Of a stretch of DNA of 45,474 nucleotides, positions 6,027-20,628 are shown piece by piece. The notes beneath the pieces were generated by a model. The model was given only the letters and a program-made list of their open reading frames with translations, was not told the origin of the DNA and made no database searches. Origin of the DNA: Tsukamurella spumae (GTDB taxonomy: Bacteria > Actinomycetota > Actinomycetes > Mycobacteriales > Mycobacteriaceae); the NCBI RefSeq assembly GCF_012396015.1, contig NZ_JAAXOQ010000031.1:1-45474 (forward strand). The letters run 5' to 3'. The first letter of the stretch is position 1. The number at the start of each line of letters is the position of its first letter. The position numbers and the translations under genes were made by a program.

Positions 6027-9000
6027 TCAGGTTCCGCCCGGCTCGTCGACCATCGCGACCTGCACCAGCTCGACGCCGCGAGCGCGGGAGACCCAGGTGC
6101 CGCGACCGGGCGGCAGCGGGCACATCTTGACGGTGCCGAGGACGGTGCCCTCCTCGCGGGAGCCGCTCATCACCAGGCCGTCCGCGGCGAGGTCGCGGAT
6201 GCGGGCGAGGAAGGTCTCGTACAGGCCGCGCGCGAGGCCGCCGCTGCGCCGGGCGATGACCACCTTGAGCCCGATGTCCCGCGCCTGCGGCAGCAGATCC
6301 AGCAGCGGCGCGAGCGGGTTCCCGGTGGCGCTCGCGACCAGGTCGTAGTCGTCGACGATCAGATAGATGTCGGGCCCCGTCCACCACGAGCGTTCCTTGA
6401 GCTGCTGCGGCGTGACATCCGGACCCGGGCAGCGGTCGCGGAGGATCTGCACCAGGTGCGCGACCATCGGCACGAGCGCGTCCGACGACGACGCGTACCC
6501 CGCGAGGTGATCGCCCTCGATCACGCCGAGCAGCGTGCGGCGGTAGTCGACGAGCAGGACCTTGGTCTGCCGCGGCGTGCCGCCCGCGACGAGGGAGGCG
6601 ATCAGCGTGCGCAGCGTCTCGGTCTTGCCGCACTCGCTGTCGCCGAGCACCAGGAAGAAGGGCTGCGACTCGAACTGCAGTGTCGCCGCGGCCAGCTCGG
6701 ATTCGCCGACGCCGAACACCGCGTGCGTCGGCAGCGCGTCGCGGCGCCCGGGGATGCGGTCGCGGAGCACCAGGTCGGGCAGCATCCGCACCGCGGGGGC
6801 ACCCTCGGTGTACTGCGCGGCCAGGCCCGCGACGACCGCGTCCTGCGCGGCGGGGAGGTCGTCCGACGGTGCGCCGCACGGCAGCGCGACCAGCATGTGC
6901 AGCTGCTCGGAGGTGATGCCGCGGCCGGGCCGCCCCATCGGGACCAGCCCCGCGACCCGGCGGCCCATCTCCGAGTCCATCGGGTCGCCGAGCCGCAGCT
7001 CGATCCGGGTGCCGAGCTGGTCCTTGACCGCGGGCCGGATCTCCCCCCACCGTGACGCGGCCACCACGAGGTGCACGCCGTACGAGAGCCCCTGGGCCGC
7101 TATCGCGTTCACCTGCGGCTCCAGCACCTCGAACTCCGTCCGCAGCACCTGCCAGCCGTCGATGACGAGGAAGACATCGCCGAACGGGTCCGCGGCGGCC
7201 GCCGGATGCGCGCGGTACTGCTCCATCGACTGCACCCCGTGCTCCCGGAACGCCGCCTCCCGCCGCCGGATCAGTCCGGACACCTCGGCGACGGTGCGCC
7301 GCACCCGATCCGGATCCAGCCGACCCGCCACCGATCCCACGTGGGGCACGCCCGCCAGGCCGGCGAGCGAGCCGCCGCCGAAGTCCAGGACGTAGAACTG
7401 GATCTGCCGCGGCGTGTGCGTCAGCGCCGCGGACACCACTAGGGTCCGCAGCGCGGTGGACTTGCCGGACTGCGGGCCGCCGACCACCGCGACATTGCCC
7501 TGCGCACCGAACAGGTCCACCACCAACAGGTCCCGCCGCTGGTCGTAGGGGCGGTCGACCACGCCGATCGCGACCCGCAGCGGCGTCGCATCGTTCCGGC
7601 GGAGGTGTTCGGCCAGTTCCCCGACCGCCGCGGACTCGTCGAGCGGTGGCAGCCACACCTCGTGCGCGGGGAGCCCGTGCCCGGACAGCCTGCCGACCAT
7701 CGTCTGCAGGAGCGACGGTGCGCCCTGCGTCCCGCCCGGCGGGTTCGGTACGCCCGGTCCGGCGGCGGACGGCCGCACCGGGTCACCGGGCTGCGCCGGG
7801 ATCCGCTGCAGGCCCGCCGGAAGTCCGGAGGCGCGCCGCTCGATCGGGGCGGCCGCGTTGCGGTACTCGCGCACCGTCGCGCTCCCCACGCTCGCTCGTC
7901 GGGCCGCCGCGGGTCCCGCGCTGGGCGGCACGTACTCGCCGGAGACGTAACAGGCGTGGAAGCGGCGCGGCGGGTCGGCATCGAACTTGAGGTAGCCCGC
8001 TCCCGGCGTGGACGGCAGGTGGTAGGCGTCCGGGACGCCGAGGACGGCGCGGGATTCGCTGGCGGAGAAGGTCTTGAGGCCGATCCGGTAGGACAGGTGC
8101 GAGTCGAGTCCGCGGAGCTTGCCCTCCTCCAAGCGCTGCGAGGCGAGCAGCAGGTGGATGTGCAGCGACCGCCCGAGGCGCCCGATGGCGACGAACAGCT
8201 CCGCGAAATCGGGCTTCTGCGCGAGCAGTTCGGAGAACTCGTCCACGATGACCACGAGCGCCGGCAGCGGGTCGAGCGGGGCGCCCGCGCGGCGCGCCTT
8301 CTCGTACTCGCCCACGTTGGCGAAGTTGCCCGCCCGCCGCAGCAGTTCCTGCCGGCGGTTCATCTCGCCGGAGAGCGCATCGCGCATGCGGTCGACCATC
8401 GCGATCTCCTCCTCGAGGTTCGTGATGACCGCGGCGACGTGGTGCAACGACTCCAGGCCGAGGAAGGTGGCGCCGCCCTTGAAATCGACGAGAACGAGGT
8501 TCAGCGCTTCCGGCGGGTGCGTGGCGACCATCGACAGCACGAGTGTGCGCAGGAACTCTGATTTTCCGGAACCCGTTGCGCCGATGCACAGCCCGTGCGG
8601 CCCCATGCCGTTCTCCGCGGCCTCCTTGAGGTCGAGCTCGATCGGCTCACCCTGCGGCCCCACTCCGATCGGGACGCGCAGCCGCTCACGCGCGGTGCGC
8701 TCGCGCCACACCGACTGGGGCGTGATCGCCGCCGCGTCGGCGATTCCGATCAGCGCCGGCAGGCCGGGATCGGACGGTCCGCGCTCACCGTCGAAGTCCA
8801 GCAGCTCGGCCATCGACGCCGGCCGGAACCGCCCGATCCGCCGCGCCGTGACCTGGGCGGCGCCCGCGGTGACGGCATCGGGCCGGGCGAAGAACTCGAC
8901 TCCCGCGGCGCTGCGCGCCCCGAGTCGACGCGAATCGTCCACCACCAGCTGGAGGCCGGAGCGAACGGCGAGCGAGTCGGGTTCCGGGGCCAGGTCGATC

Positions 9001-10067
9001 ACCGTCACGCCGTCGATGCCGACCGCCGCGTCGAGGGCGCCGCCGGGCGTCACCGCGATGCCCCGGTCCAGCAGGATCACGTGGTGGCTGCGCCCGGGGT
9101 CGACGGGGGTCGCGCGCGCGAAGGCACCGCGATCGGCGAGGTCCGGTGCGATCGCCTCCTCGAGCTCCGCGGCCGATCCGTAGACGGTGCGGACCGGGCC
9201 GAGGGCGTCGCACTGCGTCGGATGCGCCACGTGCGGCAGCCATTTGAGCCAGCCCCATTCGGCGGAGTCCACGTCGGTGGTCGCGACGGCGATCCGCACG
9301 TGGTCCGGACCGTGCAGCAGCGCCAGGCTCAGCAGCATCGCGCGGGCGGTGTCGAAGACCTCGGCCCGCGGACCGTCGAGCCCGACGGCGGGGAATCCGC
9401 GCAGGGCGACCGCCACCGGCAGGCCCGGCACGGACGCGCCGTGCCGGACGAACCGGCGCAGGGCCACCGTCGACACCGGTTCCAGGTCCTCGAGCGGCCC
9501 CGTCTCCGGCGGCACGAGCCGCGTGGCGAGCCGCTGGCCACCGACGCCGACCCGCACGTGCAGGAAGTCCGGATCCGCCGGGCGCCGCTCCCACATGCGC
9601 CGCGTCCCGACGCACCCCGGCAGTGCCTCCGGGTCCGGATGGATCCATTCCAGCGCCGCGCGTTGTTCGGTGCGGGTGCGGTCCACCTGGCCGCGGATCT
9701 GCCCCAGGTAGCGCAGGTAGTCCTTGCGGTCCTCGTTGAGCTCGGCCGCGGACGCGCCGTTGCCCCGGTTGTTCATGCCGTACATGCCGAACATCGACAT
9801 CAGCATCATCAGCGGGAACATCATCATGTACGGGCTCTGCATCATCGCGCTGCCCGAGGTGAACATCAGCGCGATCATGCCCACCACCGCGACCACCATC
9901 ACCACGGGCAGCAGCTTCCCGAGCAGGCCGCCCGGGACGGCGCGCGGGATCTCGGGCGGCGCCTGCAGCGCCACCTCGCCGCCCGGCGTGCGCGGCGGCG
10001 CGAGTCGCTGCTTGCGTGCGAAACCCTCTGTGACGGGCTCGAAGACCACGTCCGTCGTGTCGGCCAC
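6027..10067 (-). CDS. eccC: ESX type VII secretion ATPase EccC
   Basis: This 1346-residue FtsK/SpoIIIE-type ATPase powers and gates ESX secretion at the inner membrane. Two membrane segments lie near residues 45-95 (LLPVVMVVAVVGMIALMF and MMMFPLMMLMSMFGM). Three ATPase domains follow: the first has Walker A GATGSGKSEF and Walker B LVLVDFKGG/LVVIVDEF; the second GGPQSGKSTAL with FLVIDGW; the third GDSECGKTETL with YLIVDDYD. The first site is fully canonical. The frame stays open far upstream, but the start is placed at GTG 10067, where GGGGGAGG lies 7 nt upstream and the sequence ADTTDVVFEPVTEGF begins. It is divergent from eccD, as in the ESX-4 locus (Rv3447c/Rv3448). Confidence 0.95.
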   Translation of the reverse strand: MADTTDVVFEPVTEGFARKQRLAPPRTPGGEVALQAPPEIPRAVPGGLLGKLLPVVMVVAVVGMIALMFTSGSAMMQSPYMMMFPLMMLMSMFGMYGMNNRGNGASAAELNEDRKDYLRYLGQIRGQVDRTRTEQRAALEWIHPDPEALPGCVGTRRMWERRPADPDFLHVRVGVGGQRLATRLVPPETGPLEDLEPVSTVALRRFVRHGASVPGLPVAVALRGFPAVGLDGPRAEVFDTARAMLLSLALLHGPDHVRIAVATTDVDSAEWGWLKWLPHVAHPTQCDALGPVRTVYGSAAELEEAIAPDLADRGAFARATPVDPGRSHHVILLDRGIAVTPGGALDAAVGIDGVTVIDLAPEPDSLAVRSGLQLVVDDSRRLGARSAAGVEFFARPDAVTAGAAQVTARRIGRFRPASMAELLDFDGERGPSDPGLPALIGIADAAAITPQSVWRERTARERLRVPIGVGPQGEPIELDLKEAAENGMGPHGLCIGATGSGKSEFLRTLVLSMVATHPPEALNLVLVDFKGGATFLGLESLHHVAAVITNLEEEIAMVDRMRDALSGEMNRRQELLRRAGNFANVGEYEKARRAGAPLDPLPALVVIVDEFSELLAQKPDFAELFVAIGRLGRSLHIHLLLASQRLEEGKLRGLDSHLSYRIGLKTFSASESRAVLGVPDAYHLPSTPGAGYLKFDADPPRRFHACYVSGEYVPPSAGPAAARRASVGSATVREYRNAAAPIERRASGLPAGLQRIPAQPGDPVRPSAAGPGVPNPPGGTQGAPSLLQTMVGRLSGHGLPAHEVWLPPLDESAAVGELAEHLRRNDATPLRVAIGVVDRPYDQRRDLLVVDLFGAQGNVAVVGGPQSGKSTALRTLVVSAALTHTPRQIQFYVLDFGGGSLAGLAGVPHVGSVAGRLDPDRVRRTVAEVSGLIRRREAAFREHGVQSMEQYRAHPAAAADPFGDVFLVIDGWQVLRTEFEVLEPQVNAIAAQGLSYGVHLVVAASRWGEIRPAVKDQLGTRIELRLGDPMDSEMGRRVAGLVPMGRPGRGITSEQLHMLVALPCGAPSDDLPAAQDAVVAGLAAQYTEGAPAVRMLPDLVLRDRIPGRRDALPTHAVFGVGESELAAATLQFESQPFFLVLGDSECGKTETLRTLIASLVAGGTPRQTKVLLVDYRRTLLGVIEGDHLAGYASSSDALVPMVAHLVQILRDRCPGPDVTPQQLKERSWWTGPDIYLIVDDYDLVASATGNPLAPLLDLLPQARDIGLKVVIARRSGGLARGLYETFLARIRDLAADGLVMSGSREEGTVLGTVKMCPLPPGRGTWVSRARGVELVQVAMVDEPGGT

Positions 10068-10154
10068 GTATGTGCCTCCCCCGGAGTGCGGCGCGCCCCC
10101 ACGCGCCGTCGTGGCACCACCATGCACCGCGCGGCCCGCCGACGGAAGGGGTTC

Positions 10155-10167
10155 GACGAAGTTCGTC
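10155..10167. promoter_or_regulatory. Palindrome in the eccC-eccD intergenic region
   Basis: GACGAA-G-TTCGTC is a perfect 6+1+6 inverted repeat. It lies 7 bp upstream of the -35 box of the eccD promoter and inside the divergent eccC leader, so a bound protein could act on both genes. No regulator is known; it is a candidate operator only. Confidence 0.35.
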
Positions 10168-10173
10168 CGAAGG

Positions 10174-10203
10174 GGAACCGATCGCGGGGCCGGTGCGTCT
10201 AAT
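10174..10203 (+). promoter_or_regulatory. ECF sigma-type promoter of eccD-mycP
   Basis: GGAACC (10174-10179), a 16-bp spacer and CGTCTAAT (10196-10203) form a promoter of the extracytoplasmic-function sigma class. The last spacer bases CCGGTG and the CGTCTAAT box recur at the PE-like gene promoter, and a close variant precedes the EspC-like gene. The eccD start codon lies about 50 bp downstream. In M. tuberculosis the ECF factor SigM controls ESX-4 genes; a SigM orthologue is inferred here, not seen. Confidence 0.7.
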
Positions 10204-10253
10204 TCATATCGGGCCCGGTGCGGGCCCGCCGGAGGGCATGCGAGGGGAGCGTC

Positions 10254-11753
10254 ATGACCGACATCGACATCGCGGAGGAGACGGCGGCGGAGGTGGCCCG
10301 GCTGAGCCGGGTCTCGGTGCTGTGCGGCGGCGCACAGGTGGACGTCTCCCTGCCGTTGCTCACGCCCACCGAGGTGCTCATCCCGGAGCTGGTGCGGCTC
10401 TTCGGCGATCGCATCGGCGAGTCGGCGGAGTCCGCCTGGTCGCGGCCGTGGCGATTGGCCCCCGTCGGCGGGGAGCCCTTGCCCGGCCCGCAGACCCCCG
10501 CGGACAGCGGCATCACCGACGGTGCGCTGCTGGTCCTGTTCGTGGCCGACGCGCCGCCCCCGCCGCCGGTGTTCGACGATGTCTTCGATCGGACGGCGGC
10601 CGACCTGACGGCCGGCGGGCGCTGGGACGAGCGGGCCGCGACGATCGTGGGCCTCGTAGTGCTGGTCCTCGCGGTCCTCGCGACCGGCGCGGTCTCCCTG
10701 CGGCTCGGTCTCGCGCCCCGCAGCGCCGACGGCAGCGTTGCGGGCGCCGACCGGGTGTTCGCCCAGCTGTGGTGCGGCGCAGGCGCAGTGGCGCTGATCA
10801 CCGGATCGCTGCTGACGGCGCGCCGGATGCGCTCGGCCGGGCCGGTTCCCACGGTGCTCGCGGCGAGTGCCGCGGTGCTGGCCGCGGCCACCGGCGCGCT
10901 CACGGTGCCGCTCGGCGCCGACGGCCGGTACGGCGCGGCGCACGCGCTGCTCGGCTGCGCCGCCGCAGCGGTCACCTCTCTCGTCGCGCTGCGCTTCACC
11001 GGCCGCGGCATCGCCGTCCACACCGCGGTGCTCACGGCGGCGGCAATCGCGGGCCCCGCGATGTTCGCCGCGATGTGGCTGCCCGGCCACCGGGCGCCGA
11101 TCGGGGCCACCGTCGCGATCATCTCCTATCTGGTGCTGGTCTTCGCGGCCCGGATCGCCGCCGTCGCGGCCCGGATCCCGTTGCCGCACGTGCCGGCCGC
11201 GGGGGAACGGATCGACCCCATCGACGACGACCCGCCGCCCACCGTCGCCGGTGTCGGTGCGGTGGCGTCCGGGCTCGTGGACGAGCAGGCCGAGGTGCCG
11301 CGCTCGGGCTTCGCCCAACTGATCTGCACCGGGATCACCGTCGGGGCAGCGGCAGCGGGAACCGTGGCGGCCCTGACCGTCGGCGCCGGTGACCGCGAAC
11401 TGCCCGGCCAGCACCTGGCATTCGTGCTCGTCGTCGCCATCGCGTTCTGCCTGCGGGGCCGCACCCACGCGGAACCGATCCAGGCGAGCGCCGGGGTGCT
11501 CGGCGGCGCGGCCATCGCGATCGGCACCGCCACGAGCCTGGCCTGGGGCTACGGGGCCTGGCCCGCGATCGGTCTCGTCGCGCTGGCCGCGATCGCCGGC
11601 CTGGCCCTGGCCTGCGGCGCGGCCGCTCCGCGCATCACGTTCAGTCCCGTCCAACGCCGGCTGGCGGAGGTCGGCGAGTACCTCACGATCGCCGCGGCCG
11701 GGCCCCTGCTGGGCTGGGTGTGGGACGTGTACGCCACGGTCCGGAATCTCTGA
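10254..11753 (+). CDS. eccD: ESX type VII secretion membrane channel protein EccD
   Basis: This 499-residue subunit is the multi-spanning component of the ESX inner-membrane complex. Residues 15-100 form the ubiquitin-like cytosolic domain (VARLSRVSVLCGGAQVDVSLPLLTPTEVLIPELV). About eleven hydrophobic segments follow, from IVGLVVLVLAVLATGAVSL near residue 130 to the C-terminus. ATG 10254 is chosen because GGGGAG lies 4 nt upstream and the protein then opens MTDIDIAEE. Its TGA overlaps the ATG of mycP (TGATG), which indicates translational coupling. Confidence 0.95.
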   Translation: MTDIDIAEETAAEVARLSRVSVLCGGAQVDVSLPLLTPTEVLIPELVRLFGDRIGESAESAWSRPWRLAPVGGEPLPGPQTPADSGITDGALLVLFVADAPPPPPVFDDVFDRTAADLTAGGRWDERAATIVGLVVLVLAVLATGAVSLRLGLAPRSADGSVAGADRVFAQLWCGAGAVALITGSLLTARRMRSAGPVPTVLAASAAVLAAATGALTVPLGADGRYGAAHALLGCAAAAVTSLVALRFTGRGIAVHTAVLTAAAIAGPAMFAAMWLPGHRAPIGATVAIISYLVLVFAARIAAVAARIPLPHVPAAGERIDPIDDDPPPTVAGVGAVASGLVDEQAEVPRSGFAQLICTGITVGAAAAGTVAALTVGAGDRELPGQHLAFVLVVAIAFCLRGRTHAEPIQASAGVLGGAAIAIGTATSLAWGYGAWPAIGLVALAAIAGLALACGAAAPRITFSPVQRRLAEVGEYLTIAAAGPLLGWVWDVYATVRNL

Positions 11754-13006
11754 TGGGGCGGCGGATCCGGGCCGTCACCGTCGCCGCGGTGGCCGCTCTG
11801 GCGATGCCTGTCGTTCCGGCCTCCGCCGATCCGCCACCGGCGGACGGCGCGCCGCGCGGGCCGGTGGCCCCACTCGCGCCCACCGTCCAACGGACGCAGT
11901 GCAACACGCTGCGCACGCAGGCCGGCACCGACTACGGCCGCGCCGATCACGCCGCGCGCGCCCTGCGCTTCGACCAGGCGTGGCGATTCACTCGCGGTGA
12001 GGGACAGAAGGTCGCGGTGATCGACACCGGCGTCACACCGCACCCCCGCCTCGGGGAGGTGATCGCGGGCGGGGACTACGTCTCCTCCGGCGACGGGCGC
12101 GATGACTGCGACGCCCACGGCACCGCCGTCGCCGGGATCATCGCCGCCCGTCCCGCCCCGGGGGACTCCTTCGCGGGCGTGGCGCCCGCGGCGTCGATCA
12201 TCGCGATCCGCCAGGCCAGCGCGGCCTTCGAGCCGCAGCAGCGCGGCGTCAACAGCCACGGCAACGTGACCACGATGGCGTACGCGGTGGTCCGCGCCGT
12301 CGACCTCGGGGCCACCGTCATCAACATCTCCGAGGTGGCGTGCGGGCGATCGGCCGCCGAGCTCGGCGACGACGCTCTCGGCCGAGCCGTGCGCTTCGCC
12401 GCGGAACGGGACGTGGTCGTGGTCGCGTCGGCGGGCAATGTCGGGTCCGGCGGGCCCTGCGCGGAGCAGAACACCGATCCCGCGGCGCCCCTGACGATCG
12501 CGTCGCCCGCCCGCTTCGCCGAGCACGTGCTCGCCGTCGGCGCCACCGAGCCCGATGGGCGGCCGGCGGCGTTCTCGCTGGCGGGGCCGTGGGTCACCGT
12601 CGCCGCGCCGGGCACCGACGTGACCACGCTCGAGCCGCGCGGCGCCGGCCTGGCCAACGCGCAGCTGACCCGCGAGGGCACCGGCCCACTCGCCGGCACC
12701 AGCTTCGCCGCGCCCTACGTGGCGGGGGTCGCCGCGCTGGTCCGATCGCGCTTCCCGCACCTCACCGCGGCGCAGGTCCGCGCCCGGATCATCGCGACCG
12801 CGCGGCGATCGGCGGGGATGGGCGGCGCGGGCATCGTCGACCCCGTCGCGGCCGTCACCGCGGAATCGCCCGGCGAGCTCGCCGCCCCCGGCCGCCTCGA
12901 CATCGCGGCGGTGCCGGCACCGGACCACGGGCCGCGCACCGTCTCGCTGGGCGGCCTCGGCATCCTGCTCGTCGCCGCGGTCGCCGCGTGCCTCACCCGC
13001 CGCTGA
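11753..13006 (+). CDS. mycP: Mycosin, ESX-associated subtilisin-like protease MycP
   Basis: This 417-residue membrane-anchored serine protease belongs to the S8 mycosin family, which is needed for stability of ESX membrane complexes. A signal peptide spans residues 1-25 (AAVAALAMPVVPASA). The catalytic triad is D91 (VAVIDTGV), H122 (DCDAHGTAVAG) and S317 (LAGTSFAAPYVAG), with oxyanion N229 (ASAGN). A C-terminal membrane segment (LGGLGILLVAAVAACL) is followed by the short basic tail TRR. The start overlaps the eccD stop codon. It converges on eccB, with a shared hairpin between them. Confidence 0.96.
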   Translation: MGRRIRAVTVAAVAALAMPVVPASADPPPADGAPRGPVAPLAPTVQRTQCNTLRTQAGTDYGRADHAARALRFDQAWRFTRGEGQKVAVIDTGVTPHPRLGEVIAGGDYVSSGDGRDDCDAHGTAVAGIIAARPAPGDSFAGVAPAASIIAIRQASAAFEPQQRGVNSHGNVTTMAYAVVRAVDLGATVINISEVACGRSAAELGDDALGRAVRFAAERDVVVVASAGNVGSGGPCAEQNTDPAAPLTIASPARFAEHVLAVGATEPDGRPAAFSLAGPWVTVAAPGTDVTTLEPRGAGLANAQLTREGTGPLAGTSFAAPYVAGVAALVRSRFPHLTAAQVRARIIATARRSAGMGGAGIVDPVAAVTAESPGELAAPGRLDIAAVPAPDHGPRTVSLGGLGILLVAAVAACLTRR

Positions 13007-13033
13007 GCGGCCCGTTCTCCTTCGGGCTCAGCG
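13001..13033. terminator. Bidirectional hairpin between mycP and eccB
   Basis: CGCTGAGCGGCCCG (13001-13014) pairs with CGGGCTCAGCG (13023-13033) across the loop TTCTCCTT, leaving a 3-nt bulge in the left arm. Both stop codons lie inside the stem. It could end transcription from either side. Confidence 0.55.
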
Positions 13034-14446
13034 CGACACCGTGATCCGCGTTCCGTCGCGGGTCACCGCGGCGGCGCCGCGCGTGAGGTCCGGTCCCGCG
13101 GGCAGGGCCGAGAGCACCGACCAGGCCACGGGCCGCGGCTGGTGCAACAGGCCCAGGATCTGCGCGGTCGCCGGGTCGGGTACGCCGAACCGCACGCCCG
13201 AATCGGAGACGTAGAACAGTCCGTCACGGCGCTCGCCGCCCGGCTGCGCCGAGATCACGTACTCACCCGATCCGGACGGCACGAGCGCCGCGTCCAGTGC
13301 GTCGCCGGCACCGTCGGCCCCGGCGAGCGCGACGGGCGCACCGGACCCGGGCGGCGCGGTGAAGGTGCGCAGTTCGACGGTGCCCCCGCCCTTTCCGTCG
13401 GCGGAGGCAGCGGCGCAGACGACGGGCGCCTCCTGCAGCGTGCGGACGACGGGCCGCCTGTCCGGTAGGTCCCCGACGGGCACCGAGCGCCGGACGGGCG
13501 CGGCGGCGACGACCGAGGCGGGCACGGTGGCGATCGGCCCGCCCACCGGGTCACCCGCGCGGATGAGGTCGGCCGCCCATTGCCCTACCGGCTGCACCCC
13601 GTCAGCGAGGACGGCGTAGAGGCGGTCCCGGTCGGCATCGGAGACCCGAACGATATCGCCCACATGCGATCCGGGGACCGCTGCAGCAGCTTGGCCGCGG
13701 CCGGGGATCTGCGGGACGGCGATGTCGTCGATCCGGGCGAAGGCGTTGAGCACGGGCGCGCTGACCGAGCGGGCCTGCGTGCCGTCGATGCCCGCGAGCC
13801 GCCGGACCACCGGGTCCGCGGGATCGACCGGCGCTCGGAAACCCCGCAGCAGCAGGAAGTACCGGTCATCGCGGCGCACCAGCACCGCGCCCTCGTCGGC
13901 GGCCCCCTCGTCGACGGAGGTGACCATCGTGTCGAGCGCGTCCCGCGCGGCGGGCTTGTCCGGCGGCGCCGGGCGCGTGCGGTCGCAGAGCAGCCACGGT
14001 GACGCGCCGTCCTTCCAGGCCGATACCGGTCCGAGGATCTGGGCCGGTGCGCCGACGATCCCCACCTCGGGGCCCCGCCGGAAGTCGCTGAGCCGCTTGT
14101 CCTTGACCGCGGTCGGCGAGGCGGCCTCGCCGACCACCAACCGGGCGGACGCGAGGCCGGTGACGGGATGCAGCACGTCGTCCACGCGGACGTACAGTGC
14201 GCCGGACTCCTTCGCCAGCACGATCTTCGCGTTCCCGACGGCGCCCTGCGGGCGGAGCAACGCGAGGACCCCGCAGCCGCCGGTGACCACCAACGCCAGG
14301 ATCAGGCCCACGACGAGAGAGCGGGACTGCGAGGCCATGGGATCCGAGATCATCCGCGGATCGCGCCGCAGCAGCGCGTGATCCATGCGCCGCAACACGA
14401 ATCGGTACCCGCTGACCTGCGCGCGGGTGGTCAGTTGTTTACGCAT
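13028..14446 (-). CDS. eccB: ESX type VII secretion protein EccB
   Basis: This 472-residue core subunit has a short cytosolic N-terminus with the family opening MRKQLTTRAQVSGYRFVLRRMDHALLRRD, a single membrane segment near residues 43-66 (SLVVGLILALVVTGGCGVLALL), and a long periplasmic region of repeats. The periplasmic cysteines in WLLCDRT and VVCAAASAD match the conserved disulfide of the family. GGGGGAGGG lies upstream of ATG 14446. It is divergent from eccE across 135 bp; I found no ECF-type promoter there. Confidence 0.95.
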   Translation of the reverse strand: MRKQLTTRAQVSGYRFVLRRMDHALLRRDPRMISDPMASQSRSLVVGLILALVVTGGCGVLALLRPQGAVGNAKIVLAKESGALYVRVDDVLHPVTGLASARLVVGEAASPTAVKDKRLSDFRRGPEVGIVGAPAQILGPVSAWKDGASPWLLCDRTRPAPPDKPAARDALDTMVTSVDEGAADEGAVLVRRDDRYFLLLRGFRAPVDPADPVVRRLAGIDGTQARSVSAPVLNAFARIDDIAVPQIPGRGQAAAAVPGSHVGDIVRVSDADRDRLYAVLADGVQPVGQWAADLIRAGDPVGGPIATVPASVVAAAPVRRSVPVGDLPDRRPVVRTLQEAPVVCAAASADGKGGGTVELRTFTAPPGSGAPVALAGADGAGDALDAALVPSGSGEYVISAQPGGERRDGLFYVSDSGVRFGVPDPATAQILGLLHQPRPVAWSVLSALPAGPDLTRGAAAVTRDGTRITVSR

Positions 14447-14581
14447 TTCTCGCTCGCCCTCCCCCGGGGTGCGTGCCGATCCGCTTCCCCCGAAGCGGTC
14501 GTACTGTCGCCGAGAATACGGTACTTTCTCAGCACTGCAGGACGTTTCGGGGGAGACGGCCGGGCTCGAGGGGGAGCATTC

Positions 14582-16030
14582 ATGGATCAGTCACTACCGT
14601 CGACCGGACTCGCCGCTCCCGGGAGATGGAACCGCTCGGCCTGGCCGGGCACCGGCGCGGTGCTCCTCGCGGAGCTGGGCGCCGCTGCCGCCGGTCTCGG
14701 CACCGCGGCGCTCGGCGGGCCGCACTGGGCCGCCGCCGGCGCCGCGCTCGTGGTCGGGGGCGGGGCGCTGACCCGGGTGCGCGGCACCGCCGGTGCGGAG
14801 TTCGTCGCGGACCGGCTCGCCCTGCGCGCGGCGGCCGGGGTCCGGGTCGAGGCCGCGCCGTATCCCGGCGGCGGCGACATCGGGGTACGGCGCAGCGGCG
14901 ACGGCCTGACCGCGTTCGTGCGCATCGCCGCGTCGACGCCGCAGGTGGTCGCGTTGCTGCGGCGGGACGACCCGGCCGTACCGCTGGGCGTGCTCGCGGC
15001 GCTGCTCCGCCACGGCGACACGCCCGCGTCGCGGATCGACGTGCTGCTGAGCGGCGGTCGTGCGCCCGGCGAGCCGCCCGCCCCGTACCTGCGGTACCGG
15101 CACCTCCTGGGACCCGTGAACCGGTGGGCCGCGGTCGACGTGCTCATCGGCATCACGGTCGATCCGCGCGCATGTGCCGCGGCGTGCCTACGGCGGGGCG
15201 GCGGACCGTCGGGCGAGGGACGGGTCGCCGCGCTGGCGGCGCAGCGGGCGATGGACCTGCTGCGCGCCGCGGGCGTCGACGCGGCCGTGGTTCGCCCGGC
15301 CGAGGCGGCGCACCTGGATGCCGCCCCGCCGCCCGGGGCCGAGTATCTGGACCCCGAGATCCTCGCCCGCGGCGGGCTCGGCGCCCTGTTCCACGCGGAC
15401 GCTCCGGGCACCGCCGGCGTGACGCTGCGCGCCGGTGCGGATCGCGGAGTCCGACTGGGCGCGTGGTGCAGTGGGGCCGGATCGGGCCGCCACCCGCGGC
15501 GCGGCGATCACGAGGCGACCGGGGCGGCGAGCGCCCTGGAATCCCTCCACATCCCCGTGAGCGGGGCCGGTCAGATCCTCGGGTCCGATGCGGCCGGCGG
15601 GCCGGTGGGAGTGCGCCTCCACGGTCCCGGCGTGCGGACGGTCTGGGCCGCGGTCGCCGACGATCCGGCCCGCCAGCTCGTCGAGCGCGCCGTCGCGACC
15701 GGCGCGCGGGTACTCGTCGTGACGGGCCGACCCGCGATGTGGGAGCCGCTCGTCTCCTGGGTGGGATCGCCGCGGCACCTGTGGATCTCCGGCTGGCGGT
15801 ACCCCCATCCGATCGCGCCCCTTCCCGCCGACTACACGGTGACCGTGCTCGACGGCACCGCGATCGGGCTGCCGCCGGGCTCGGTCGAGCCCGCGGGCAC
15901 CGTCTGGCGGGTCGAACAGGCCGGGATCTCGCCGGTCTCCGAAGCGGACGTGGTGCTCAGCCAGCCGATGCCCGGGATGCTCACCGTGCGCACCGACGGT
16001 GCCGCCGCGACCCTGCGGCTCGTCGCCTGA
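14582..16030 (+). CDS. eccE: ESX type VII secretion protein EccE
   Basis: The 482-residue protein has two N-terminal membrane segments (residues 24-44, AVLLAELGAAAAGLGTAAL, and 47-62, HWAAAGAALVVGGGAL) followed by a long soluble domain. This layout, its length and its place beside eccB identify EccE, the outer subunit of the ESX membrane complex. EccE is absent from the ESX-4 locus of M. tuberculosis but is reported in ESX-4 loci of other actinobacteria. ATG 14582 has GGGGGAG 5 nt upstream. A hairpin follows the stop codon, where it meets the esxT-like gene. Confidence 0.8.
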   Translation: MDQSLPSTGLAAPGRWNRSAWPGTGAVLLAELGAAAAGLGTAALGGPHWAAAGAALVVGGGALTRVRGTAGAEFVADRLALRAAAGVRVEAAPYPGGGDIGVRRSGDGLTAFVRIAASTPQVVALLRRDDPAVPLGVLAALLRHGDTPASRIDVLLSGGRAPGEPPAPYLRYRHLLGPVNRWAAVDVLIGITVDPRACAAACLRRGGGPSGEGRVAALAAQRAMDLLRAAGVDAAVVRPAEAAHLDAAPPPGAEYLDPEILARGGLGALFHADAPGTAGVTLRAGADRGVRLGAWCSGAGSGRHPRRGDHEATGAASALESLHIPVSGAGQILGSDAAGGPVGVRLHGPGVRTVWAAVADDPARQLVERAVATGARVLVVTGRPAMWEPLVSWVGSPRHLWISGWRYPHPIAPLPADYTVTVLDGTAIGLPPGSVEPAGTVWRVEQAGISPVSEADVVLSQPMPGMLTVRTDGAAATLRLVA

Positions 16031-16047
16031 CGCTCTCCCCCGCACGA

Positions 16048-16081
16048 CGGGGCCCGGCGACCGATCGGCCGCCGGGCCCCG
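16048..16081. terminator. Bidirectional hairpin between eccE and the esxT-like gene
   Basis: A perfect 12-bp stem (CGGGGCCCGGCG with CGCCGGGCCCCG) closes on a 10-nt loop. It lies between two convergent stop codons and is the likely end of both the eccE transcript and the PE-PPE-espG-esxU-esxT transcript. Confidence 0.7.
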
Positions 16082-16093
16082 CCTCCGCTCCCG

Positions 16094-16390
16094 CTACACC
16101 TGCCAGCCCTGTGCCGCCTGCGCGTTGGTCGTCTGCATCGACTGGACCGCGTTCTCGGCGGCGGTCTTGACGCGGGCCAACAGCGAGGTGATCTCCTCGA
16201 AACCCGAGTTCCACTTCGTCTGCACCGCCTGGTACGCGGTCGCGGAATCCGGGTCCTCCCAGGCGCCCTCGAACTTCATCTGCTCCGTGCGGATGCCCTC
16301 CGCCTGCTGGAGCAGCACCGTCGTGCGGGTGGCGATGTCGTCGAGCGCGCCGCGGATCGTGGCGTAGTCGTACCGGATGTAGTCACTCAT
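16094..16390 (-). CDS. esxT: WXG100-family protein, EsxT-like
   Basis: The 98-residue helical-hairpin protein is the last gene of a minus-strand ESX operon. The turn between the two helices reads GAWEDPDSATAYQ: W44 is present, but the glycine of WXG is replaced by D46. M. tuberculosis EsxT also has a W without the glycine, which fits orthology. No C-terminal YxxxD/E signal is visible. It probably forms a heterodimer with the upstream EsxU-like protein, 26 bp away. AAGGGGGAA lies just upstream of ATG 16390. Confidence 0.85.
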   Translation of the reverse strand: MSDYIRYDYATIRGALDDIATRTTVLLQQAEGIRTEQMKFEGAWEDPDSATAYQAVQTKWNSGFEEITSLLARVKTAAENAVQSMQTTNAQAAQGWQV

Positions 16391-16416
16391 GATGTTCCCC
16401 CTTGTTGGTTCTCTGC

Positions 16417-16728
16417 TCAGACGTTCAGCACGCCGCCGAAACCGGCGTTGATGTCGGAGACGTTCTGTTCCTCCTGCGCGCCGTAGCTCGCGGTGTTGGC
16501 CGTGAGCATCGCGCTGATGTCGTTCAGCGCGGTGTTGATCTTGGCCGCGCTCTCGTCCCAGCGCGCCATCACGCCGAGGAACGCCACCTGCGCGGCGCCG
16601 GCCCACACGCCCTGCGTGGCCTCCACGTCGCCCCGCAGCTGTCCGAGCGTGCCCTTCATCTGAGCGCCGAGGTCGTCCAGCGTCCCGGCACTGGTCTTCA
16701 TCGCCGCGAGTTCGGCCTTGGTCGTCAT
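16417..16728 (-). CDS. esxU: WXG100-family protein, EsxU-like
   Basis: The 103-residue member of the ESAT-6 family has the turn motif W42-A43-G44 (GVWAGAAQVAFLGVMARW). Near the C-terminus Y82 and E86 (YGAQE) make a YxxxE type VII export signal. It is thus the partner expected to be recognised by EccC, while the downstream EsxT-like partner lacks a signal. ATG 16728 has GGGGAGGAG upstream. Gene order esxU then esxT matches Rv3445c-Rv3444c. Confidence 0.9.
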   Translation of the reverse strand: MTTKAELAAMKTSAGTLDDLGAQMKGTLGQLRGDVEATQGVWAGAAQVAFLGVMARWDESAAKINTALNDISAMLTANTASYGAQEEQNVSDINAGFGGVLNV

Positions 16729-16797
16729 GTCGTACTCCTCCCCGCCGGACGTGCCGGCACGTCGCGACCCGCACCGGTTGGCGTGGGCCGTCCCCGG

Positions 16798-17532
16798 TCA
16801 CGGCGTCCAGCCGCCCCCCGGAAGTTCTTCGCAGGCGCTCCGCAGCGCCCTGCCGATCCGATGCGTGCTCCCCTCGGCCACCGCCATCCACGCCCCGGCA
16901 CCCGTCCCGCCCGCCGTGCGGACGACGATGCAACCACTCGGCGCGTCGATCACCGCGACCGCACCCGCACAACGGGATTCGCCCGCGTGCACCGTGAACT
17001 CGACGCTGCGCCGCGACTGTGTGAACACTCTCGCGATCAGTCGCGCGGGATCCGCCCCGACCCCGATCGCGCGGAGTCCCGCGGCGACGGCGGACGCGTC
17101 CCCCGCGCACAGGGCCTCCCTCCCCGGCGCGGCGGGAAAGGAGGCCGCGACAGCGGGATCCGCGGGTGCACCCGCGCCGAGGAGCGGCGCCACGAGCGCA
17201 CCGAGACGATCCGCGGAGCCATCGCAGTGCGGCAGGTCCACGGTCGCCGTACCCGCACTGCGGATCACCCGCGCCGTGCGCGGCCCCGAACGGGCGAGGC
17301 ACAGCCGCGACCCCAGCGCATCGGACGCGCGTCCTTCGATCCGCACCTCCGGTGCGGCGAGGACGCCCAGGGCCGCGAGCTCGTCGTCGTCCAGGACGGG
17401 ATCCGCCCCCGACTGCTCGGGCACCGGTCCGCCGGGTTCGACGGTGCGCCGCGGGTCCGGCGGCGTCCACAGCACGGGCGGCACCTCGGTACCGAACCGT
17501 GCCGTCAGCGCGGCCACCGCGTGCACGCTCAC
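16798..17532 (-). CDS. espG: EspG-like ESX secretion chaperone
   Basis: The 244-residue cytosolic protein resembles the EspG family (PF14011 type), chaperones that bind PE-PPE heterodimers and deliver them to their ESX system. Supporting features are the N-terminal LDDDELAALGVL helix, the central ARVIRSAGTATVDLPHCDG strand region, and the C-terminal GAWMAVAEGSTHRIGRALRSACEEL helix. It directly follows the PPE-like gene: its GTG start overlaps that gene's TGA (GTGA). A chaperone coupled to its presumed client fits the role. ESX-4 of M. tuberculosis has no EspG. Confidence 0.65.
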   Translation of the reverse strand: MSVHAVAALTARFGTEVPPVLWTPPDPRRTVEPGGPVPEQSGADPVLDDDELAALGVLAAPEVRIEGRASDALGSRLCLARSGPRTARVIRSAGTATVDLPHCDGSADRLGALVAPLLGAGAPADPAVAASFPAAPGREALCAGDASAVAAGLRAIGVGADPARLIARVFTQSRRSVEFTVHAGESRCAGAVAVIDAPSGCIVVRTAGGTGAGAWMAVAEGSTHRIGRALRSACEELPGGGWTP

Positions 17533-18500
17533 AGCTCCTCCACCAGGCTCTCGCCGTGCGCACCGAGCACCGCGGGCGCGGCGTGCACCACGAAGGCGTC
17601 CGGGGCGTCCTCGTCGCTCGCGGAGGGCACGGCCCCCGGCGTGTGTCCGGACGCGTGCTTCGCCGCCGCCCCGGCGGCCGCCGCACCCATGAGTCCCGCG
17701 GGCATCATCGGGAACCCACGACCACCTGCTGCGGCGTTGTTCCCCGCCGGCGCCGGCCGGGCGCCGGCGGAGGCCTGCTCACGCTGCAGGGCGCTCACGG
17801 GGAACGCGGACAGCGGCGTCGCCGGGACCCCGACACCACCGGCTCCGCGGCCCGCCCCGGTCCCGGTGCCGGTGCCGGTGCCGGTGCCGGATCGCTTGTC
17901 CTTACCCGGCTTCTCGCGCCCCGCGTCCGCCTTCGGCGGCGGGGCGAGATCCCAGGGCACCCGCAGCGGCTCCGCGGCGCGTTCGAAGCCCACCATCACG
18001 GCGGCGGCGGTGCCGTGCGCCTGCTGCTCGGCCCGTTCGGCGTCCACCGCGGCACCGACCAGCGCCGCCACCGCGGGCTCGGCACCGCCGGCGTCCGCGG
18101 CGGCCCGCGCGTTCTCCCGATCCGTGCGCATCCGCGTGGCGTCCGCCACCGAGGGCATCGCCCGCGCCGCCGTCTCGTAGGCGGACGCCTGGCCCGCGAG
18201 CTTCGCTGCGTACTCCGCGAGGTCGGCCGCGTGCCGGGCCAGCCAGCGTGCGTACTCCGGGAGGGGGCCGGTGCGCCGGGCATCGGTATCCGCGCGCCCC
18301 GTGTCCACCGCACCGTCGAGCTGCACGACGAGCCGATCGAGCTGGACCGCGGCGGCGCCGTACGCGGACGCGAGCCGCGCCGTCTCCTGCGCGGCAGTGG
18401 TGAGCGGCTGTGCGCCCGCGCCGCCCAACAGCTCGGTCGCGAGTCGCTCAGTGGGGCGGGAGTACCAGTCGACCCCCGTGAACCCCGGATCGCGCGGCAC
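17529..18500 (-). CDS. PPE-like ESX substrate
   Basis: The protein has 323 residues. The N-terminal part (GFTGVDWYSRPTERLATELLGGAGAQPLTTAAQE) followed by long alanine-rich helices to about residue 180 has the pattern of PPE-like domains in non-mycobacterial Mycobacteriales, without the literal Pro-Pro-Glu. The C-terminal half is low-complexity: a charged linker, a Thr-Gly repeat, and a Met/Gly/Ala stretch (GFPMMPAGLMGAAAAGA) before an acidic end. It starts at GTG 18500, two bases after the PE-like stop codon, and overlaps the EspG start. It should pair with the PE-like protein. Confidence 0.6.
   Translation of the reverse strand: MPRDPGFTGVDWYSRPTERLATELLGGAGAQPLTTAAQETARLASAYGAAAVQLDRLVVQLDGAVDTGRADTDARRTGPLPEYARWLARHAADLAEYAAKLAGQASAYETAARAMPSVADATRMRTDRENARAAADAGGAEPAVAALVGAAVDAERAEQQAHGTAAAVMVGFERAAEPLRVPWDLAPPPKADAGREKPGKDKRSGTGTGTGTGTGAGRGAGGVGVPATPLSAFPVSALQREQASAGARPAPAGNNAAAGGRGFPMMPAGLMGAAAAGAAAKHASGHTPGAVPSASDEDAPDAFVVHAAPAVLGAHGESLVEEL
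17863..17890. repeat. Hexanucleotide tandem repeat in the PPE-like gene
   Basis: CCGGTG is repeated four times plus a partial fifth copy. It encodes alternating Thr-Gly in the linker of the PPE-like protein. The 6-bp unit keeps frame, so slippage would change linker length without breaking the gene. Confidence 0.9.
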
Positions 18501-18502
18501 CG

Positions 18503-18814
18503 TCAGACCGCCAGACCGACGACCGCCGCGAGCTCCTCGTCACTGCGCTGGACGGCCGAGACGTGCCCGTTCACGGCCTCGCCGAGCCGGCGCAGATCGG
18601 CGGCGGCGGTCTCCGCGGCGCGGGACTGGGCCTCCCCCATCCGCCGCGCCGTGTTCGCCACCGCGACCGACACCTCGTCGCGCCCCGTGGCGGGCGGTGC
18701 GGCGTGCGCCGCGAACCGCTTCTGCGCGTTCTCGAGATCGACGACGATCCGCTCGATGCCGCGGGCGATCTCCCGCGCCTCGCGCGGATCCATGCTGAGC
18801 CTGGTACCTGTCAT
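18503..18814 (-). CDS. PE-like ESX substrate
   Basis: The 103-residue all-helical protein has a first helix (REAREIARGIERIVVDLENAQKRFAAHAAP), a turn with D46-E-V-S matching the DEVS motif of PE proteins, and a long second helix. It has no tyrosine, so the C-terminal YxxxD/E export signal typical of PE proteins is missing. ATG 18814 is chosen because it follows GGGGGGAG by 9 nt and sits about 30 bp below an ECF-type promoter. It is the first gene of PE-PPE-espG-esxU-esxT, and its order before the PPE-like gene supports the call. Confidence 0.6.
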   Translation of the reverse strand: MTGTRLSMDPREAREIARGIERIVVDLENAQKRFAAHAAPPATGRDEVSVAVANTARRMGEAQSRAAETAAADLRRLGEAVNGHVSAVQRSDEELAAVVGLAV

Positions 18815-18849
18815 GGTCGTGCACTCCCCCCGAAGTTCTTCCCTCATTC

Positions 18850-18879
18850 ATTAGACGCACCGGCCCCCGGCGCGGTTCC
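18850..18879 (-). promoter_or_regulatory. ECF sigma-type promoter of the PE-PPE-espG-esxU-esxT operon
   Basis: On the minus strand GGAACC (18879-18874), a 16-bp spacer ending GGCCGGTG, and CGTCTAAT (18857-18850) match the eccD promoter base for base in both boxes and in the last eight spacer bases. Transcription should begin about 30 nt before the PE-like start codon. Confidence 0.75.
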
Positions 18880-18885
18880 ACCCCG

Positions 18886-20241
18886 CTACAGGCGAAGTTC
18901 GACATCGGGCCCGGAAAGGTCGGCGGACGGCGATGCATCGCCCACCACCTGCGGCCCGACCAGCGGCAGATCCCCGAGCACCGCCTCGCCGTTGTCACTG
19001 GTGACGAGGTAGTCGGGCACCGAGTGCTCCGCCCCCGTGGCCCGGGCCCCCGCGGCGCCCGCCGCCCCCATCGGCATCATGCCGCCGCCCATCCCGGTGC
19101 GGGTCAGCACTTCCGAGGCGGGGACCGTACGCGCGCCGCCGTCGACGACGGGGGTGCGCGACACGGGCGTTCCCGAACTCGGCTGCGCCAGAGCGGCGGA
19201 CGCCGCGCCGAGGCCGGCGCCGGTGAGGCCGACGGCGCCTACGCCACCGCCGCCTCCGCCGGTACCCGCGCCCGCGCCGCCGGCGGTGCTGGTCGTGGCC
19301 ACCGGGAAGGCGTCCCGGTCGGCGTCGGGCGCGCGGGCCCCCTCGGGCTCCGCGGTCGAGTCGGCCGATCCGCCGATCGCCTCCGCCGCCGAGCTCGCCA
19401 CGCTCACGGCTGTTTTCACGGCACCCGAGACGGTGTCGGTGGCGAGCTTCGTCACGCCCGTGAGGGCGCCCGTGACCGCGGAGACGACGCCGGGCACGAT
19501 CGACGCAGCGGCCTGCGCCGCCGTCGTCGCCGCCGTCATCGGCGGCGCCGCCACCGGCACCTTGCGGCCCGCTGCGCCCACCTGCGCGCTGAGCCCCGAG
19601 AGCTGACTCTTCGTGCGCGCCACCACCTCCGTGGCGTGCGCCAGATGCTCCTCGGCGGCCGCTACCGCCGCCGCCTGCCCGGGCGGGAGCCAGAGCGACG
19701 GTCCGAGCGCCGCGATCACGGACATGAACGAGTCGATGATCGCCTGCAGCTCCGCCTCACCCGTGCCGACGACGGTGGCGGCCTCGCCGACGGCGGTGGA
19801 GAGCTCCGCGCCCTGCTCCGCGGCCAGACCCGTACCGGTCGCGGCCTCGAGCCCCTTGCCGGTGGCCGCCGTCGCCGCGGGTCCCTGCCATACCGAGGAG
19901 AGCTGCCCGAGGGCCTGCATCCCCGTCGACACCCCCTGCTCGAGCGCCTTCGACGCCCCGGACAGTGCCGCCGACGGGTCCAGCCCGCTGAAGCTGCCCG
20001 AACCGAAGGTGGACAGCAGATCCGTCATGGGTTTGACGAGGCCCGCCACGTCGAATCCCGGGAACTCCGGCGCCTCCGGCACGCCCTTCGGGGCGGGCGG
20101 AAGCTCCTGCTGCGGTGGCTTCTCCGGCGCTGTGGGCACCGGCGGCAGGCCCAGCGCGGCGAGGACCTCGTTCACCGGCCGGTCGAGCAGCGCCCGGATC
20201 GCCGGGTCGAGCCCGCCGTCCGGCGTCGCGGGTTCGGACAT
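18886..20241 (-). CDS. Large EspA/EspB-like ESX substrate with WXG motif
   Basis: The 451-residue protein begins with a Pro-rich segment (residues 30-60), followed by a helical domain containing the turn SSVWQGPAATAATGKG near residue 118, a WXG motif. Further Ala/Val-rich helices are followed by a glycine-rich linker (residues 325-345). The C-terminal GMGGGMMPMGAAGA and VPDYLVTSDNGEAVLGDLPLVGPQVVG tail is of a kind seen in EspA/EspE-like and PPE-like proteins of this order. It follows the EspC-like gene by 3 bp, as espC and espA pair in M. tuberculosis. Whether it is an exported effector or part of the machinery is not shown. Confidence 0.6.
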   Translation of the reverse strand: MSEPATPDGGLDPAIRALLDRPVNEVLAALGLPPVPTAPEKPPQQELPPAPKGVPEAPEFPGFDVAGLVKPMTDLLSTFGSGSFSGLDPSAALSGASKALEQGVSTGMQALGQLSSVWQGPAATAATGKGLEAATGTGLAAEQGAELSTAVGEAATVVGTGEAELQAIIDSFMSVIAALGPSLWLPPGQAAAVAAAEEHLAHATEVVARTKSQLSGLSAQVGAAGRKVPVAAPPMTAATTAAQAAASIVPGVVSAVTGALTGVTKLATDTVSGAVKTAVSVASSAAEAIGGSADSTAEPEGARAPDADRDAFPVATTSTAGGAGAGTGGGGGGVGAVGLTGAGLGAASAALAQPSSGTPVSRTPVVDGGARTVPASEVLTRTGMGGGMMPMGAAGAAGARATGAEHSVPDYLVTSDNGEAVLGDLPLVGPQVVGDASPSADLSGPDVELRL

Positions 20242-20244
20242 GGC

Positions 20245-20550
20245 CTACAACACCGCCGAGGTCAGTCCCGCGACATTCGCCACCTCAGTGGCACCGTAGG
20301 CCGCGACGGTGGCCGCCGAGGACGCAGCGATCCCGCCGTAGAGCACCGCCAGCTCCGCGACGGACTCGACGTGGACCGCCTGCGCCGCGGTGAAGGCCGC
20401 GAGGAAGTCCTGCCCGATCAGGCCCAAGGCCGGGTTCAGCGCCGCGACATTGGCCGCCGCGTCCACCGAACCCGCCGTCGCGACCGCCACCCCGATGCCG
20501 GCGTTGGCGGCGCCGAACGCCGCGATCGCCGAATTGACCGCCATGAACAT
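20245..20550 (-). CDS. EspC-like small ESX-associated protein
   Basis: The protein has 101 residues, or 99 if it starts at the second ATG (20544). The helical, alanine-rich sequence ALNPALGLIGQDFLAAFTAAQAVHVESVAELAVLYGG, followed by AAYGATEVA, has the pattern of the EspC family (PF10824 type), small ESX substrates. GGGGGAG lies 4 nt from the first ATG and 10 nt from the second, so the start is uncertain. It is preceded by an ECF-type promoter and followed 3 bp later by the large EspA/EspB-like gene. Confidence 0.55.
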   Translation of the reverse strand: MFMAVNSAIAAFGAANAGIGVAVATAGSVDAAANVAALNPALGLIGQDFLAAFTAAQAVHVESVAELAVLYGGIAASSAATVAAYGATEVANVAGLTSAVL

Positions 20551-20598
20551 CTTTCTCCCCCATCGTGTCCCCGGGCCCGGTGCGCGAGGCCCTCATCA

Positions 20599-20628
20599 AT
20601 TGGACGCACCAGCTCGGGAATCGGATCC
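20599..20628 (-). promoter_or_regulatory. ECF sigma-type promoter of the EspC-like operon
   Basis: On the minus strand GGATCC (20628-20623), a 16-bp spacer ending GGTG, and CGTCCAAT (20606-20599) form a variant of the promoter at eccD and the PE-like gene. The -35 differs at one base (GGATCC for GGAACC). The start codon lies about 50 bp downstream. Confidence 0.65.

Follow-up and report, generated by a model that had tools for sequence, protein, structure and literature searches.

Three putative SigM promoters in an ESX-4-related locus of Tsukamurella spumae and their place in a probable genome-wide regulon

The window analysed here is a 45,474-nucleotide stretch of the Tsukamurella spumae genome (assembly GCF_012396015.1, 4.46 Mb in 79 contigs; contig NZ_JAAXOQ010000031.1, our contig C25). 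It carries an ESX (type VII secretion) locus that is flanked by glmM/rpsI/rplM-type and ribosomal genes (named by eye) and that contains three 30-base sites with the appearance of promoters for an extracytoplasmic function (ECF) sigma factor. An earlier note, made from the letters of the window, had described these sites and attributed them to a counterpart of the mycobacterial factor SigM that would switch the whole secretion apparatus and its substrates together. All three sites lie where that note placed them; two match GGAACC-N16-CGTCYAAT exactly and the one at 20599-20628 departs from it at two positions. As had also been claimed, the spacer is 16 nucleotides in each and GGTG precedes CGTC in each. 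The sites and the genes of the locus are collected in Table 1.

Each site heads a gene unit, namely eccD-mycP (site at 10174), PE-PPE-espG-esx-esx (18879) and the EspC-like gene with the gene for a 451-residue protein (20628). The further claim that these are three separate units may be too strong, as the units may overlap in transcription: the site at 18879 is located just past the stop codon of the 451-residue protein gene, and the promoter predicted there would thus lie inside a single long cluster on the minus strand. When the window was scanned with a weight matrix built from 85 Tsukamurella sites, only the three sites stood out, with everything else at 11 bits or less apart from reads of the same sites shifted by one register; the reversed window gave zero matches. 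In a loose form the motif is unremarkable inside the window: with up to three mismatches allowed it matches four times where 1.64 matches would be expected, a count that 9 shuffled sequences out of 100 also reach. In an alignment of the eccC/eccD intergenic region from 13 Tsukamurella loci, two of them identical in sequence, the GGAACC, CGTC and AAT elements of the eccD site are kept in 13 of 13 while much of the surrounding DNA varies. Upstream of the -35 box, a TTCG-CGAA block at 10152-10165 (TTCGACGAAGTTCG) is mostly kept in the same loci and is a possible operator.

Table 1. Predicted promoters and genes of the T. spumae ESX locus (window coordinates).
Feature	Coordinates	Strand	Evidence and remarks
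Predicted SigM-type promoter 1, GGAACC-N16-CGTCTAAT	10174..10203	+	before eccD-mycP; exact match; 52.0 bits (matrix)
Predicted SigM-type promoter 2	18850..18879	-	before PE-PPE-espG-esx-esx; exact match; 43.2 bits (matrix)
Predicted SigM-type promoter 3, GGATCC variant	20599..20628	-	before EspC-like and 451-aa genes; two differences from strict motif; 49.3 bits
eccC	6027..10067	-	TIGR03924/TIGR03925 over cut-off; divergent from eccD; no matrix match
eccD	10254..11753	+	TIGR03920, 234.3 bits (cut-off 94.95); PF19053, PF08817
mycP-like subtilase, start approximate	11864..13006	+	PF00082, 142.5 bits
eccB	13028..14446	-	PF05108, 462.8 bits; no matrix match
eccE	14582..16030	+	PF11203, 39.7 bits (cut-off 23.7); no matrix match
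Esx (WXG100)	16094..16390	-	PF06013, 37.7 bits (cut-off 27.3)
Esx (WXG100)	16417..16728	-	PF06013, 55.5 bits (cut-off 27.3)
EspG	16798..17532	-	PF14011, 58.6 bits (cut-off 27)
PPE protein	17529..18500	-	PF00823, 44.1 bits (cut-off 26)
PE protein, start 18793 or 18814	18503..18814	-	PF00934, 39.7 bits (cut-off 22)
451-aa probable secreted partner	18886..20241	-	WXG100, 16.7 bits, below cut-off; no family over cut-off
EspC-like small protein, 101 aa	20245..20550	-	PF10824, 20.7 bits, below the 23.5 cut-off

To place the sites in the genome as a whole, we scanned it with GGAWCC-N16-CGTCYAAT, as the earlier note had proposed, and obtained 21 exact matches compared with 0 for the reversed control. 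Varying the spacer from 10 to 22 nucleotides gave 22 matches, the 21 with N16 and a single N17 site on contig C39, with one control match. When at most one mismatch was allowed, the pattern GGAWC-N17-CGTCYAAT was matched 29 times and its controls 5 times. Exact matches account for 22 of the 29, and the seven one-mismatch matches are no better than noise. We examined the surroundings of all 22 exact sites, three of which are those in the window. Nearly all of the sites fall between genes, most often at a gene start. Nor is the motif as frequent within coding regions as outside them, the finding that the note had named as speaking against its proposal: two of 21 sites are wholly intragenic whereas gene coverage is 87% (binomial P 4e-15). 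Both of these sit at the 3' end of the upstream gene on the same strand, and a third site overlaps a gene by 2 bases. These figures use gene calls from a simple coding-potential script, with the 87% coverage taken from the same regions, and the 22nd site (L065) falls outside that table.

Alignment of the 22 sites revealed strong preferences beyond the search pattern, at G7 (20/22), C17 (22/22), G19 (20/22), G20 (19/22), T21 (18/22) and G22 (21/22), and downstream at A33 (17/22) and T34 (19/22). We then considered 85 sites from five species (G000, G203, G204, G206 and G207, using the listed exact sites for the last four). A first open reading frame (ORF) was called behind 63 of them, and in 26 of these 63 it starts exactly 4 nucleotides past AAT; transcription beginning 9 nucleotides after CGTC would yield leaderless mRNAs. 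That the sites resemble ECF promoters is strongly supported by these features of the DNA.

The sites are kept throughout the genus. Every one of 16 Tsukamurella genomes, one of which is just 83% complete, contains 13-27 sites of a slightly looser pattern, with zero matches in the reversed controls. Among five species compared, orthologous first genes are headed by a site in all five for eccD, the PE gene, a DUF6802 gene, the probable anti-sigma gene described below and an FG-GAP-like gene, and in four of the five for the EspC-like gene of the window and the first gene of locus L034. In a sample of the family, GGAACC-N16-CGTCYAAT was found at least once in 81 of the 151 genomes, belonging to 21 of 31 genera, and zero times in the 151 reversed controls.

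Which sigma factor reads the sites is suggested by a single locus. Sigma region 4 matches occur at 27 places in the genome at E 0.001, of which 23 are over the family cut-off, and a motif site was present at just one of these 27 loci (each of about 3 kb, with the site within about 1.5 kb). The sigma factor encoded at this locus scores 219.3 bits with the SigM model NF007225, above its cut-off of 190, and the site is situated between sigM and a gene for a 209-residue probable anti-sigma protein (L031:8859-9488). The gene order is sigM, probable anti-sigma gene, trxB, trxA, cwlM-like gene (the names trxB, trxA and cwlM-like were assigned by eye); in M. tuberculosis it is sigM, anti-sigma gene, trxB, trxA, cwlM. 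The earlier note had suggested looking for a sigM orthologue and its anti-sigma factor. Such an orthologue is present, next to a gene that probably encodes the anti-sigma factor and that itself carries a site. A SigM promoter in front of sigM was considered and rejected: of the two best matches in the locus (L041), the one behind sigM alone exceeds 26 bits. Five orthologues, 57-65% identical to the 209-residue protein, share one hydrophobic stretch by eye, beyond which residues C136 and C184 are invariant; the stretch and the cysteines would fit a membrane anti-sigma factor. With thioredoxin genes as neighbours of the gene, redox sensing by the invariant cysteines is conceivable. NF007225 was rejected as a clean marker of SigM, since 125 of 200 genomes of the order pass its cut-off and in the genus g5 it points elsewhere.

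The genes behind the sites fall into recognizable groups. Besides the three ESX units, six units are type VII substrate-like (L025 twice, L027, L030, L034 and L036), five are AbiEi/DUF559 genes (L026, L033, L035, L065 and the decayed L024), two are DUF6802/FG-GAP-type genes (L022 and L032), one is a DUF6459 gene (L037) and one is the probable anti-sigma gene. For some of the six substrate-like units the label is weak. L030 encodes a WXG100_2 protein over the cut-off (30.6 bits, cut-off 27) behind a YbaB-type first gene, the large proteins of L034 and of the minus-strand unit of L025 match WXG100 models below the cut-off, and the larger protein of L027 has an NlpC/P60 domain (74.0 bits, cut-off 23). 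The small proteins of L027, L030 and L034 have no family match and are respectively 33%, 24% and 23% identical to the EspC-like protein of the window, all in a single alignment. The plus-strand unit of L025 and L036 have no family match either and were grouped by mutual likeness and position. The L036 site is just behind a recA-recX pair (by eye). DUF559 matches number 11 in the genome; a site was found in the fetched locus for five of them, one being the N17 site, and for none of the other six. The SigM-type site of L024 precedes a decayed DUF559-type gene (L024:9893-10339). A small RNA at this ORF-less site was rejected, as the stretch matches the 315-residue product of L208 piecewise in different frames; in other species the gene has orthologues that are open and leaderless (L206, L207 and L208), and their products pass DUF559 with 21.6, 21.9 and 24.5 bits (cut-off 20.6). 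A second WXG100 pair on contig C22 at about 53.3-54.0 kb (L186/L188) perhaps marks another ESX locus; it was rejected as a regulon member, with no SigM-type site in the fetched loci of about 3 kb.

Similar genes follow the sites in other genera. In genus g5 we read ten sites (7 of 8 in genome G136, 3 of 3 in G074). One heads a pair encoding an EspC protein (PF10824 over cut-off) and an NlpC/P60 protein, with 64% identity over 143 residues to L027, and another an EspC-like protein and a 313-residue protein (L195) that is 37% identical over 223 columns to the 451-residue protein of the window. Others head two genes of the AbiEi/DUF559 type, a gene for a 125-residue protein, a pair encoding 101 and 186 residues and an FG-GAP-like gene, which is 41% identical to L032 and has no Pfam match. 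Site L190 of G136 lies 56 nucleotides before recA (named by eye). In G136 a site-headed small gene precedes trxB (L192/L204); its product is anti-sigma-like by eye and has one unrelated Pfam match below the cut-off. The automatic rule called no ORF behind g5 site L191, nor behind site L200 of G160 (genus g4). The best SigM-type gene of g5 is 45-48% identical to SigM of T. spumae, its best match among the sigma loci of that genome.

Beyond Tsukamurella the eccD site was not found to be kept (the eccD homologues scanned are given below), but sites do occur elsewhere in ESX-4 neighbourhoods. By eye, among the matches listed, at least 24 genomes of other genera combine an eccD place with a site, and at least six of these 24 (G223, G226, G248, G021, G233 and G074) have their nearest site at 5.6-9.6 kb from eccD, where a rough estimate would lead one to expect about 0.2. 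We read the DNA around the sites of five of these six genomes and of G306, G335 and G326. In G226 and G248 the motif is 5.6-5.7 kb from eccD and stands ahead of WXG100 genes; in G233, G306, G335 and G326, too, it stands ahead of WXG100 genes. WXG100 genes over the cut-off stand behind the sites of L215, L216, L217, L220, L221 and L222 (genera g73 and g80), and the second sites of L217 and L222 precede small proteins that match EspC below the cut-off. L219 has two ORFs with no family match, and at L218 the automatic rule called no ORF.

Within the window the sites do not cover the whole machine. The claim that the entire apparatus is switched together fails for eccC (start 10067, minus strand), eccB (14446, minus) and eccE (14582, plus), before none of which the matrix scan found a SigM-type site. 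Direct SigM-type control would therefore reach just a part of the apparatus. Footprints over 13 and 12 Tsukamurella loci revealed other conserved elements upstream of eccC and between eccB and eccE. On the eccC side of the eccC-eccD region, an inverted repeat GGCGCG-CCCCCA-CGCGCC at 10090-10107 is kept in most of the 13 loci and may belong to the promoter or leader of eccC. The eccB-eccE interval (14447-14581) contains a palindrome, CGCTTC-CCCC-GAAGCG, and a TACGGTACTTTC block, both kept in most of the 12 loci, and no SigM-type box.

The sites, then, are very probably promoters of the ECF sigma factor SigM within one genome-wide regulon. This part of the earlier proposal is strongly supported, by sites that are genome-wide, nearly all intergenic, nearly uniform in spacer, conserved in the genus and present at the sigM locus; control of the whole apparatus is not. 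A chance triplet in GC-rich DNA would agree with the ordinary count of three-mismatch matches in the window, but it is already refuted by 21 genome-wide matches against 0 and by the sites in all 16 genus genomes without a control match, and its probability is close to nil. It is scarcely more credible that we are dealing with conserved operators or with a dispersed repeat and not with promoters. Such elements could explain why conservation extends past both boxes; they would not explain a mostly fixed orientation at a short distance from gene starts, nor ECF-like boxes with essentially one spacer in front of different genes. A regulon of the same extent read by another ECF factor, or by several overlapping ones, is unlikely but deserves more attention, given the 27 region 4 places with 23 over the cut-off, the general use of GGAAC as an ECF -35 element and the published promoter overlap among ECF factors of C. 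glutamicum. Against it stand the SigM locus as the only sigma locus with a site and a membership that fits published SigM targets.

Several observations weigh against assigning all sites to SigM, or against its generality. The automatic rule found no first ORF behind 22 of the 85 sites, among which are some low-GC or missed genes and one decayed gene, and four sites of the T. spumae genome (L021, L023, L028 and L029) have no target assigned. Neither Pfam nor NCBIfam gives a match for the 209-residue probable anti-sigma protein, whose structure was predicted with low confidence (mean predicted local distance difference test score 57.8, predicted template modelling score 0.45, from 5 sequences). 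In g5 the best NF007225 match is an ECF gene away from trxB, in G136 as in G074, and in G136 it is on a contig other than that of L192/L204. Across the order, the looser pattern occurs in just 26 of 200 genomes and a few reversed controls match too. No site lies directly before 27 eccD homologues of other genera, scanned strictly over the fetched loci and in relaxed form up to 700 nucleotides upstream (about 150 for L082).

The SigM consensus is of the GGAAC/CGTC type with fixed spacing, to which the promoters described here conform. The minimal ESX-4 of M. tuberculosis is not known to have a PE, PPE, EspG or EccE gene in its locus. All four are present in the T. spumae locus, which makes it ESX-4EVOL-like and not a minimal ESX-4; the ESX-4 label implied by the earlier note is right as far as ESX-4-related and is refined accordingly. 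ESX-4EVOL denotes ESX-4-related clusters with added eccE, espG, pe and ppe, with T. paurometabola as a carrier (Newton-Foot et al., PMC4791881), and the window locus likewise combines ESX-4 components with these four. The available text of PMC4791881 describes no regulation of the cluster.

Control of ESX-4 by SigM has already been published for M. tuberculosis and M. smegmatis. In M. tuberculosis, esx-4 expression falls on deletion of sigM and SigM overexpression strongly induces esxU, esxT, esxE and esxF, so that SigM governs ESX-4 together with unlinked type VII genes (PMC10117145, PMC8593097). The Tsukamurella counterpart has SigM-type sites at ESX genes and at unlinked probable EspC/WXG-type pairs. 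It differs from the M. tuberculosis regulon of ESX-4 genes and the esxF-esxE-cpnT operon in the PE, PPE, EspG and EccE genes of its locus, in an eccC without a site of its own and in the prominence of AbiEi/DUF559 and DUF6802/FG-GAP genes. According to a review (PMC9514802, citing Clark 2018), the ESX-4 apparatus, a cell wall hydrolase and a nuclease are under direct SigM regulation in mycobacteria upon physical contact. In recipient cells of M. smegmatis, esxU/T are induced by contact, apparently via SigM (PMC10906988). NlpC/P60 and DUF559 genes carry sites in Tsukamurella, a likeness in kind; contact activation and DNA transfer are features described for the M. smegmatis response. What the present analysis adds is the probable regulon in Tsukamurella, the list of its members and the split control. 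A literature search on Tsukamurella ESX-4/type VII secretion, sigma factors and AbiEi/DUF559 returned no title on this regulon, with most subscription papers outside its reach.

Seen as one regulon in the DNA, the sites lead us to infer one SigM regulon in transcription as well, which could work as follows. A probable membrane-anchored anti-sigma factor, encoded next to sigM, would let go of SigM, and RNA polymerase with SigM would read GGAACC as the -35 and CGTCYAAT as the -10 element. Transcription would then produce eccD-mycP, the EspC-like/451-residue pair and the PE-PPE-EspG-Esx-Esx unit of the ESX-4EVOL system. It would also reach the dispersed probable EspC/WXG-type pairs, one of which includes a peptidoglycan hydrolase, and the AbiEi/DUF559 genes, most of whose transcripts would be leaderless, with the start codon at the predicted start site. 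Expression of the anti-sigma gene would close a negative loop. Other promoters would make eccC, eccB and eccE, and SigM would add substrates, presumably to be secreted, and the EccD/MycP part to a partly standing machine.

Substrates of ESX-4-type systems are poorly known, and a sharp 30-base promoter with 13-27 sites per genome turns the search for them into a set of testable, co-expressed candidates. In two genera the promoter also links a family of nuclease-like genes with a regulon for secretion, and it separates genes under direct SigM-type control (eccD, mycP and substrates) from the site-less eccC, eccB and eccE. A bolder and so far doubtful idea is that SigM runs a cell-contact programme with three arms in Tsukamurella and its relatives: the ESX-4EVOL conduit, a set of EspC/WXG-type effectors, one of them a wall hydrolase, and an enlarged AbiEi/DUF559 nuclease-like family that handles incoming DNA. 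If this is true, ESX-4-linked DNA exchange of the M. smegmatis type would be an older, family-wide trait, and the promoter would serve as a reading key for unknown effectors.

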